A DNA stretch of 42,143 nucleotides, taken from contig CANBVO010000004.1 of assembly GCA_947372915.1 (NCBI GenBank), forward strand, positions 1-42,143, given 5' to 3'. Under the pieces are notes generated by a model, which searched no databases, was not told the origin of the DNA, and saw only the letters and a program-made list of their open reading frames with translations. Numbering within the stretch: position 1 is the first letter of the stretch; each line of letters opens with the position of its first letter. Made by a program: the position numbers and the translations under genes. Positions 186 to 2,325 of this stretch are shown piece by piece. Source of the stretch: Actinomycetota bacterium (GTDB lineage: Bacteria; Actinomycetota; Actinomycetes; Nanopelagicales; Nanopelagicaceae).

Positions 186-773
186 CTATCGCTCGGGAAC
201 TGAATCTGGCGAGATCACAGCCTGAGCCACTTCCTTCATGGAAATCCGGCGGTCCATCGCTGCTCGCTGGATCCAGCTAAAGGCCTCGGGCTCGGAGAGT
301 GCGAGCGCCTGCATCAATATCCCCTTGGCTCGATCGATGATCTTGCGAGTCTCGAGTCGCTCGTGCAGGTCGGTAACCTCAGTCTGTAGCGCTTTGAGCT
401 GGGTATGGCGCGAGATAGCGATTTCGATGGCAGGAACTAAATCAGAGATAGAAAAAGGTTTAACCACGTAAGCCATAGCGCCGGCATCTCGCGCACGCTC
501 CACTAATTCGCGTTGGCTAAAGGCGGTCAACATAAGAACTGGTGCGATTTCAATGATTGATGCGGCTGCGGTAATGCCATCCATCTCCGGCATCTTTACA
601 TCCAAGATAGCCAAATCTGGCTTGTGCTCCCCCGCGAGTGCAATTGCTTCGACGCCATTTGTAGCTTGGGCGACAACTTCGTATCCGGCTTCGGTCAGCA
701 TTTCTACAAGATCGAGTCGAATGATTGCTTCGTCCTCGGCGACGAGGATTCTCGGCTTCTTGTCGGTGCTCAT
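186..773 (-). CDS. pdtaR: ANTAR-domain response regulator, PdtaR-like
   Basis: Two-domain response regulator of 195 residues. Residues 7-120 form a CheY-like receiver with the acidic cluster E13-D14-E15, phospho-acceptor D58 (in ILDVKMPEMDG), T83 and K105. Residues about 130-186 form an ANTAR RNA-binding domain (ETRKIIDRAKGILMQ, then a helix with W167). Family members act as RNA-binding antiterminators; mycobacterial PdtaR is phosphorylated by the sensor kinase PdtaS. No kinase gene lies in the window. The start is the only sensible one, because the receiver begins at residue 7, yet it sits one base after the 3' end of a tRNA gene. Its message must therefore either carry the tRNA as leader or begin at the processed tRNA end. 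The position next to pyk is shared with other actinobacteria, which supports the PdtaR name. Confidence 0.9.
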   Translation of the reverse strand: MSTDKKPRILVAEDEAIIRLDLVEMLTEAGYEVVAQATNGVEAIALAGEHKPDLAILDVKMPEMDGITAAASIIEIAPVLMLTAFSQRELVERARDAGAMAYVVKPFSISDLVPAIEIAISRHTQLKALQTEVTDLHERLETRKIIDRAKGILMQALALSEPEAFSWIQRAAMDRRISMKEVAQAVISPDSVPER

Positions 774-774
774 G

Positions 775-847
775 TGCCTCGAGTCGGATTTGAACCGACA
801 CTGTGCGGATTTTGAGTCCGCCCTCTCTACCGTTGGAGTACCGAGGC
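775..847 (-). tRNA. tRNA with anticodon CAA (Leu), short variable loop
   Basis: A 73-nt cloverleaf folds without gaps. The acceptor stem has 7 pairs (GCCTCGG with TCGAGGC, the last a G-T), then U8-A9 and a 3-bp D stem. The anticodon stem is perfect (GCGGA/TCCGC) with loop CTCAAAA, giving anticodon CAA. A 5-nt variable loop (ACAGT) precedes a perfect T stem (GTCGG/CCGAC) with loop TTCAAAT, and the discriminator is A73. CCA is not encoded. CAA decodes UUG leucine, but leucine tRNAs normally have a long variable arm, so this is a type I molecule with a leucine anticodon. A73 agrees with leucine identity. It lies between pyk and the response-regulator gene, on the same strand as both. Confidence 0.9.
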
Positions 848-848
848 G

Positions 849-885
849 TGCGCCAAATTATAGGCGCATATCTAGATACTGACTA
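849..885 (-). promoter_or_regulatory. Putative tRNA promoter with -10 box inside an inverted repeat
   Basis: On the minus strand TATAAT (857-862) lies 9 bases before the tRNA 5' end. A weak -35 candidate TAGTCA (880-885, 4 of 6 matches to TTGACA) is 17 bases further upstream and overlaps the pyk stop codon. The -10 box forms the loop of a perfect 6-bp inverted repeat, TGCGCC at 849-854 and GGCGCA at 863-868. That repeat could be an operator, an RNA hairpin ending the pyk message, or chance. Confidence 0.5.
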
Positions 886-2325
886 TTTGCGGTAAGCGGC
901 TGCTACGCCATCGATAGCATCGCCAACAACGTGTACGCGTAGAGCGTTAGTGGAACCTGGGATTCCTGGAGGTGCACCGGCCACGATCACCACTGAATCG
1001 CCCTTTTGGACGCGTCCGGATTCAATCAAAATAGTATCGACTTGCTTCACCATCTCATCAGTGTGTTCCACTGACGGAGTAATCATGGATTCCACTCCCC
1101 AGGAAAGGGCGAGCTGGTTATAGACCGAAGTCTCTGGTGTCAGCGCCCAAATAGGAATGGGAGAACGCAAGCGTGACATGCGGCGAGCAGAGTCACCGGT
1201 CTGAGTGAAGGCGACCAGAATCTTTGCACCAAGAATTGCGCCGACTTCGGTAGCTGCCTTAGTAATGGTTCCGCCCTTAGTGTGTGGTTCGTGTCCAAGT
1301 GGGGCAATTCGGCTGAGCATCGCTTCTTCAGTACGTTCAATAATGCGCGCCATCGTCTTGACTGCTTCGATGGCAAACTCGCCAACACTGGTCTCCCCTG
1401 ACAACATCAGAGCATCTGCGCCGTCGAGAACTGCGTTGGCACAATCTGTCGCTTCAGCGCGAGTTGGGGTGGAGTTAGAGATCATTGAATCCAACATCTG
1501 CGTTGCAACGATGACCGGCTTGGCCATAGCACGAGCGAGTTCGATACAGCGCTTTTGGACGAGTGGCACTTCTTCAATCGGCATTTCCACACCTAAGTCG
1601 CCACGCGCGACCATGATGCCGTCGAAAGCGGCAACGATTTCTTCAAGGTTATCGACTGCTTGCGGCTTCTCAATCTTGGCGATAACCGGACGGCGAATAC
1701 CTTCTTCATCCATGATGCGATGAACATCCTTCACATCTGCGGCATTGCGGACGAAAGAGAGTGCGATGAAATCTGCGCCGGCACGCAAACCCCAGCGAAG
1801 ATCTTCTTTATCTTTATCCGAAAGCGCTGGTACTGATACTGCAACACCAGGAAGGTTAATTCCCTTGTTGTTGCTGACCGCGCCGGGCTCTACACATTTG
1901 GTAATGACATCGTTGCCTTTTACTTCAATAACTTCGACTGCAACTTTGCCATCGTCAATGAGAATTCGATCGCCAGCTTTGCAATCGCCAGGAAGTCCTT
2001 TGTAGGTTGTTCCGACGCGATCTTTCGTTCCTTCCACCTCATCGGTGGTGATGGTGAAAATATCGCCACGCTTGAGATCGTGCGGTCCGGCGGCAAAGCG
2101 CGCAAGGCGAATCTTAGGGCCTTGGAGGTCTACCAAAATTGCAACTGGCTTACCGGCAGCAAGTGCGGCAGCGCGTACTCGATCCAGGCGAGCTTGATGC
2201 TCGTCATAACCACCATGTGAAAGATTAAGGCGTGCCATATTCATGCCAGCAGCGATGAGTTCGGTGACTTTCTCGGGCGCCTCTACGGCTGGCCCCATTG
2301 TGCAAACAATCTTGGCTCTACGCAT
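883..2325 (-). CDS. pyk: Pyruvate kinase
   Basis: Converts phosphoenolpyruvate and ADP to pyruvate and ATP, the last step of glycolysis, in the cytoplasm. The 480-residue length is normal. Visible landmarks are the N-terminal RAKIVCTMGPA strand, the substrate/K+ site NLSHGG (34-39), VDLQGPKIR (65-73), the pyruvate kinase signature IAKIEKPQAV with K217 and E219, ARGDLG with metal ligand D243, and ATQMLDSM followed by PTRAE. The C-terminal domain (about 345-480) has the usual alpha/beta fold. The ATG start is preceded by GAGGG with 6-nt spacing. It lies 28 bases downstream of gltD on the same strand and is probably co-transcribed with gltBD. Its stop codon overlaps the -35 candidate of the downstream tRNA. 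Confidence 0.97.
   Translation of the reverse strand: MRRAKIVCTMGPAVEAPEKVTELIAAGMNMARLNLSHGGYDEHQARLDRVRAAALAAGKPVAILVDLQGPKIRLARFAAGPHDLKRGDIFTITTDEVEGTKDRVGTTYKGLPGDCKAGDRILIDDGKVAVEVIEVKGNDVITKCVEPGAVSNNKGINLPGVAVSVPALSDKDKEDLRWGLRAGADFIALSFVRNAADVKDVHRIMDEEGIRRPVIAKIEKPQAVDNLEEIVAAFDGIMVARGDLGVEMPIEEVPLVQKRCIELARAMAKPVIVATQMLDSMISNSTPTRAEATDCANAVLDGADALMLSGETSVGEFAIEAVKTMARIIERTEEAMLSRIAPLGHEPHTKGGTITKAATEVGAILGAKILVAFTQTGDSARRMSRLRSPIPIWALTPETSVYNQLALSWGVESMITPSVEHTDEMVKQVDTILIESGRVQKGDSVVIVAGAPPGIPGSTNALRVHVVGDAIDGVAAAYRK

Follow-up and report, generated by a model that had tools for sequence, protein, structure and literature searches.

This locus raises the question of whether a tRNA gene with a leucine anticodon, but with a body of the short-armed type, can be a genuine leucine tRNA. 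The gene lies at 775-847 (-) of the window, the whole stretch of 42,143 nucleotides that was analysed, which is contig C4 of an assembly of 1.31 Mb in 118 contigs with a completeness of 91%. It is very probably a working leucine tRNA without the usual long side arm, and its form recurs in many Actinobacteria and in phages.

ARAGORN identifies a tRNA-Leu(CAA) at 774-847 (-), and the Rfam family RF00005 matches 775-847 (-) from end to end, scoring 55.7 bits where the cut-off is 29 (E 5.2e-10). The type I body measures 73 nt up to A73, with C774 as the sole base of the CCA end in the DNA. The anticodon CAA (positions 34-36; ARAGORN) is found at 812-814 (-) and the variable region ACAGU (positions 44-48; Rfam match and drawing) at 800-804 (-). 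At 5 nt, this region has the class I length of 4-5 nt and falls below the minimum of 10 nt for a class II variable arm. The arms contain 7/3/5/5 pairs with one wobble, G7.U66, and the acceptor and T stems of 7/5 differ from the 8/4 or 9/3 of allo-tRNAs. U48 is able to pair with A15. Shuffled sequences fold at least as well in 4 of 200 cases (z -2.5). The earlier note had described a CAA anticodon on a type I body with a 5-base variable region, which both programs bear out. Its ‘perfect’ stems stand as an intact cloverleaf, the acceptor excepted on account of the wobble. The short D stem does have 3 pairs by ARAGORN, but this is a minimum, since C13 might form a further pair with the G that precedes a bulged A. 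C13 is invariant among the short sequences, so the D-stem pair 13-22 offers no covariation to read. The tRNA-Leu(CAA) at 775-847 (-) of the window is intact, and its variable region is 5 nt long.

The tRNA sits between the pyruvate kinase gene pyk, upstream at 883-2325 (-), and an ANTAR response regulator gene at 186-773 (-) (PF00072 and PF03861), which we take to be PdtaR-like; all three are on one strand. A weak promoter-like candidate from a motif scan, TAGTCA-17-TATAAT, is located at 857-885 (-) with 10 of 12 consensus bases and a spacing of 9 bases to the tRNA, the region containing 1 such site against a mean of 2.0 in shuffles. The regulator ATG begins one base (C774) past A73, so that cleavage at the 3′ terminus of the tRNA would yield an mRNA with almost no leader. 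In the genus, exactly one base separates A73 from the regulator start at 21 of 21 loci, the window among them (junction at 771-775 (-) in the window; loci L041-L061), with ATG in 15 and GTG in 6; a second CAA copy in congener G016 (L067) is without this spacing. Elsewhere in the window, bases 1-463 have a second copy, 95% identical, at one end of contig C94 (3656-4118; L002), which runs on into other sequence. The two copies may reflect variation between strains or a repeat that the assembly has broken.

RF00005 gives 37 tRNA matches in the genome of the window, every one of which was identified. The leucine tRNAs with UAG and GAG are long-armed, and those with UAA (contig C82, L003) and CAA (the window) are short-armed. 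No long-armed UUR-reading tRNA-Leu is found among the 37 matches of this 91% complete assembly; the second, type II tRNA-Leu(CAA) for which a search had been proposed as a check is thus not among them. As the assembly is incomplete and its 37 tRNAs contain no Ile or Asn tRNA, though these are expected, a hidden long-armed gene is possible there. It is less so in congener G010 (99% complete), which has a short UAA gene (L269) and a short CAA gene (L046). The three congeners examined, G010, G001 and G009 (98-99% complete), have 39, 32 and 33 RF00005 matches, respectively. Those of at least 80 nt number 7, 4 and 6; all are Leu UAG, Leu GAG, Ser or Tyr, and none is a long-armed UUR tRNA-Leu. A UAA gene was not identified in G001 and G009.

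Besides the copy in the window, a match to its tRNA at 99-100% identity over 77-81 of 81 query bases is present in 20 of 24 genomes of the genus. No such match occurs in congeners G006, G011, G018 and G019 (60-87% complete), and G016 carries its additional copy at 89% identity. With this near-identity across congeners, the intact fold is more than chance. That the gene is decaying or unexpressed, as its departure from the family norm might imply, is barely credible for a sequence nearly identical throughout the genus, on which ground a pseudogene was set aside, and for the sole UUG-matching tRNA seen in its own genome.

The meaning of the UUR codons was read from alignments of the window genes dnaE and ileS with their orthologs in other families (23 of 26 dnaE and 17 of 26 ileS loci kept; matches below 42% identity or 300 columns were dropped). 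Leucine is the majority residue in 25 of 27 TTG columns (67.8% of cells Leu), 17 of 22 TTA columns (62.8%) and 133 of 164 CTN columns (67.1%). For comparison, Phe is the majority in 60 of 76 TTY columns, Trp in 35 of 37 TGG columns and Met in 34 of 51 ATG columns. In these two genes, UUG codons coincide with leucine columns at the same rate as CUN codons, and the CAA anticodon is complementary to codons used as leucine; the columns reveal what UUR means and not which molecule reads it. TTG and TTA account for 14.0% and 13.4% of the leucine codons in 25 ORFs of the window.

For E. coli, a 2023 review gives A73, A15-U48, G18G19 and A20a as crucial for LeuRS (PMC9976931). The window tRNA contains A73, A14, A15-U48 and G18G19. 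The remark that A73 fits leucine is upheld, as base 73 is indeed A73 and belongs to the E. coli LeuRS determinants in that source. The premise that the long arm is used for identity is contradicted for E. coli in the available passages of the same review, where the arm has no correlation with leucylation and is not a determinant. The leuS gene has one locus in each of 22 genomes among the matches listed, 20 of them above the curated cut-off, and it is incomplete in G000 and G056. A second LeuRS was set aside, no second leuS being present in any of the 22 genomes among the matches listed.

The short form extends well beyond the genus. A covariance model of it, whose 7 training sequences score 83-100 bits with the next tRNA in the test set at 56, recognizes 100 of 396 Actinomycetota genomes at E <= 1e-15, a cut set by the authors, with part of the matches read as sequence. 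These comprise 48 of 60 genomes of the same class and 52 of 336 elsewhere. The genus g18 is not uniform, as 12 of its 19 genomes score as short at this cut and 7 do not. The earlier note's idea of a lineage-wide oddity holds in that short CAA and UAA genes are spread through Actinomycetota, but the form is not universal.

A pattern survey of 70 genomes, with chance matches sorted by eye, found a short CAA match in 7 genomes and a short UAA match in 17. A long gene of the same anticodon was found in 0 of the 7 and 0 of the 17, an absence that is weak evidence because the patterns miss genes with U32 (e.g., the CAA gene of G109, L291) and gave chance matches. In the genomes surveyed, an anticodon has either the short or the long gene rather than the two together. 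The CAA/UAA states of the 43 assignable genomes are long/long in 20, long/short in 12, short/long in 6 and short/short in 5. ARAGORN also identifies a short tRNA-Leu in Lentzea (Lentzea flava; UAA) and in Bifidobacterium (Bifidobacterium pullorum gallinarum; CAA, beside pyk and the regulator). Both genes have C73 because the search pattern required Y73-A74, and the three records of this pattern say nothing on abundance; the third, a Rhodococcus stretch, contains no short tRNA-Leu by ARAGORN. On a Tsukamurella plasmid, a short tRNA-Leu(CAA) (L347, 601-677) adjoins a site-specific integrase gene and is perhaps an attachment site. A BLAST match on a Thermomicrobium plasmid turned out to be a tRNA-Lys.

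The loss of the arm is accompanied by changes in the core. The parsed set consists of 95 distinct chromosomal UUR tRNA-Leu sequences, 51 short and 44 long, with phage and plasmid genes excluded and one long gene that misfit the parser (L144/L306) left out. A9, C12-G23 and C13 occur in 51 of 51 short sequences. The long sequences have G9 in 42 of 44, G12-C23 in 42 and G13 in 36. Genes found via similarity to the window tRNA or via model R1 could favour its D arm, but the 24 short genes from D-arm-blind patterns agree in every case on A9, C13 and C12-G23. The short variable region is 5 nt in 49 of the 51 and 6 nt in 2, and ends with AGU in 48. A15 and U48 are each present in 50, the exception (L091) having a compensated pair of G15 with C48. 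A73 is found in 49, both exceptions originating from the Y73-A74 pattern. T8, A14 and the GG were requirements of the parser, which every short sequence fitted. Two long genes, L109 and L149, contain A9 and C12-G23 but G13; they are possible intermediates, and they indicate that the exchange in the core does not always go together with loss of the arm. From these comparisons, it is likely that class I-like contacts formed in the core when the arm was lost, and the switch to the short form appears to be coordinated across arm and core.

The genomic location does not explain the shape, since the neighbours of the CAA gene are the same in several short-armed and several long-armed genomes. The regulator, sometimes with pyk, is found near short CAA genes (e.g., L091, L114, L287-L291) and near long ones (e.g., L108, L109, L273-L275, L282). 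Other long CAA genes are not near the regulator (L276-L281, L285, L286). The proposed link to the pyk locus is correct to the extent that in several genomes the CAA gene keeps the regulator, often together with pyk, but this applies to both forms alike. Within one genus, G048 (short) and G110 (long) have eight common reading frames around the CAA gene, four per side. In another genus, G111 (short) and G089 (long) have three common frames upstream of the UAA gene and none downstream. G109 (short) and G087 (long), of one family, have three beside the CAA gene. These belong to 20 pairs compared for neighbours, of which several others share one frame or none. The same-genus pairs with common neighbours indicate a switch in place. 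A DnaE tree of 53 genomes requires at least 7 changes of form for CAA and 7 for UAA; the tree, built quickly, contains 8 open forks as well as two long branches and gives no direction.

The acceptor and T stems of short and long genes that belong to one family and have the same anticodon agree at 91.7% (22 pairs; families f33, f35 and f4), compared with 69.2% in the remaining 143 pairs, all genes being taken from 8-kb loci and L087 only. The two f4 pairs show lower agreement. For f33 and f35, the agreement argues for remodelling over replacement of the whole gene. It also bears on whether the gene might derive from a tRNA of a different isotype, with a CAA anticodon gained later, and insert another amino acid or work outside translation. 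The class I-like body would suit such an origin, and a human short-armed tRNA-Leu-CAA that scores as tRNA-Met (PMC8450103) provides a parallel. This origin is very improbable, as the UUG columns are leucine, the f33 and f35 stems match those of long-armed tRNA-Leu with the same anticodon, short and long genes have common neighbourhoods, and the sequence is nearly identical in 20 of 24 congeners. An isotype-switched tRNA was set aside on the codon columns, the stem identity and the conservation in congeners. The suggestion of another charging or a non-translational role finds no support, given the leucine columns of the UUR codons, the lack of any long UUR tRNA seen in the own genome and in G010, and the LeuRS determinants that are kept.

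Short tRNA-Leu genes are also carried by phages, including phages of other phyla. The short CAA gene of G109 as a BLAST query matched 258 phage records, 106 of them over at least 80% of its length; matches left unread were not counted as short tRNA-Leu. The 14 phage stretches that were read contain 16 short tRNA-Leu genes with CAA, UAA, UAG or CAG, from phages of Escherichia, Salmonella, Shigella, Erwinia, Pseudomonas, Lactobacillus, Enterococcus, Synechococcus, Streptomyces and Mycobacterium. Thirteen were parsed, representing 12 sequences as L358 equals L365; the UAA genes of L343 and L348 and a cut CAA gene in L362 were left unparsed. C13, A15, U48 and A73 are present in 13 of 13, A9 in 11 and C12-G23 in 12. 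Streptomyces phage Alone3 has a short tRNA-Leu(UAG) with G9 (L342, 510-584) beside a short tRNA-Leu(CAA). The short tRNA-Leu(UAA) of the genome of the window (L003, 1502-1574 (-)) resembles DNA of Synechococcus phage S-SRM01, with 87.7% identity across 73 nt. The G109 gene and the genes of phages Tribble and phiEa21-4 have no match in 5,426 E. coli genomes at E <= 1e-3, so in E. coli it would presumably fall to the host enzyme to charge a phage tRNA whose form the host itself lacks. Cluster J phages integrate in the tRNA-Leu-CAA of M. smegmatis (PMC10865867), and DNA next to the integrase gene of the Omegavirus Baka matches the 3′ part of the short G109 CAA gene. In the same paper, phage Gaia does not rebuild this tRNA-Leu-CAA and brings its own copy. 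The own copy fits a tRNA that is needed, and these observations suggest that the M. smegmatis CAA gene is short.

These observations bear on a further alternative, in which the short form had one or a few origins and was then spread by recombination, for example from phage tRNA-Leu, converting resident genes in place of stepwise arm loss in each lineage. Phages of many hosts with the same architecture, the likeness of the own UAA gene to S-SRM01, the cluster J integration (PMC10865867) and the Baka match beside the integrase are consistent with it, as are the same D-arm letters in distant lineages. The acceptor and T stems of f33 and f35 remain those of the local lineage, which argues against a swap of the whole gene; only a short tract could be foreign. 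Spread of this kind is less likely than not.

The best explanation, held with high confidence, is a leucine-charged elongator that reads UUG on a type I body, remodelled from a long-armed tRNA-Leu(CAA) and charged by LeuRS. The ancestor was most likely an ordinary long-armed tRNA-Leu(CAA). Its long arm would have shrunk to about 5 bases ending with AGU while the core became A9, C12-G23 and C13. The determinants of LeuRS (A73, A14, A15-U48, G18G19 and the GG-Y-A-G-A D loop) would have been retained. The ordinary cellular LeuRS would then charge the short tRNA, since the bacterial enzyme reads the discriminator and the corner of the D and T loops, not the long arm.

The short form resembles class II tRNA-Leu (e.g., the long CAA gene of G110, L275) in anticodon, A73, A15-U48 and D-loop motif, mostly in the acceptor and T stems within a family, and in some genera in its neighbourhood. 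It differs in a variable region of 5 nt, which is 13-17 nt in class II, and in A9, C12-G23 and C13 where class II has mostly G9, G12-C23 and G13. The animal mitochondrial tRNA-Leu(UUR) is also a leucine tRNA without the long arm, and A73 and A14 are identity elements of the human molecule (PMC9976931). It is, however, organellar, with a partly unfolded anticodon branch and its own mitochondrial LeuRS, whereas the window tRNA has a full cloverleaf and presumably a cellular LeuRS. The phage genes (Felixounavirus, Kolesnikvirus, Harbinvirus, cyanophages, Streptomyces and Mycobacterium phages) have the same 5-nt loop, C13, A15, U48 and A73, but include UAG and CAG anticodons as well.

In the literature, Leu-2, -3 and -5 are named as long-loop tRNA-Leu of M. 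tuberculosis (PMC11541572), which suggests that the remaining ones are short. One tRNA-Leu(TAG), located in an extra cluster, has a short loop (PMC6582537). The available passages of these two papers do not discuss a recurrent switch or recognition by LeuRS. A Streptomyces CAA gene is in a table of PMC4932002, from the main text of which the word ‘variable’ is absent. By titles and the start of abstracts among the papers listed, no account was found of chromosomal short-armed bacterial tRNA-Leu or of the switch, and one may be in print. The available part of the 2023 review regards the long arm as universal outside animal mitochondria (PMC9976931). Short-armed tRNA-Leu on bacterial chromosomes contradicts this, and given that view the short form is an under-described second architecture of tRNA-Leu.

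A broader proposal, tentative and somewhat short of an even prospect, is that bacterial tRNA-Leu has two interchangeable architectures. The short one, defined by a loop with AGU at its end, A9, C12-G23, C13 and the leucine D loop, would be charged by ordinary LeuRS in several phyla and circulate in phages (CAA, UAA, UAG and CAG). In Actinomycetota, it would on many occasions have supplanted long UUR genes at their own loci, partly via exchange with phage tRNAs. If this is true, the benefit of the short form may be escape from SerRS or from enzymes that select long arms, and the latter may spare short tRNAs. Annotation by shape only could misjudge genuine tRNA-Leu genes. The natural, near-isogenic pairs of long and short genes would allow a test of what LeuRS reads and of how the core tolerates loss of the arm.
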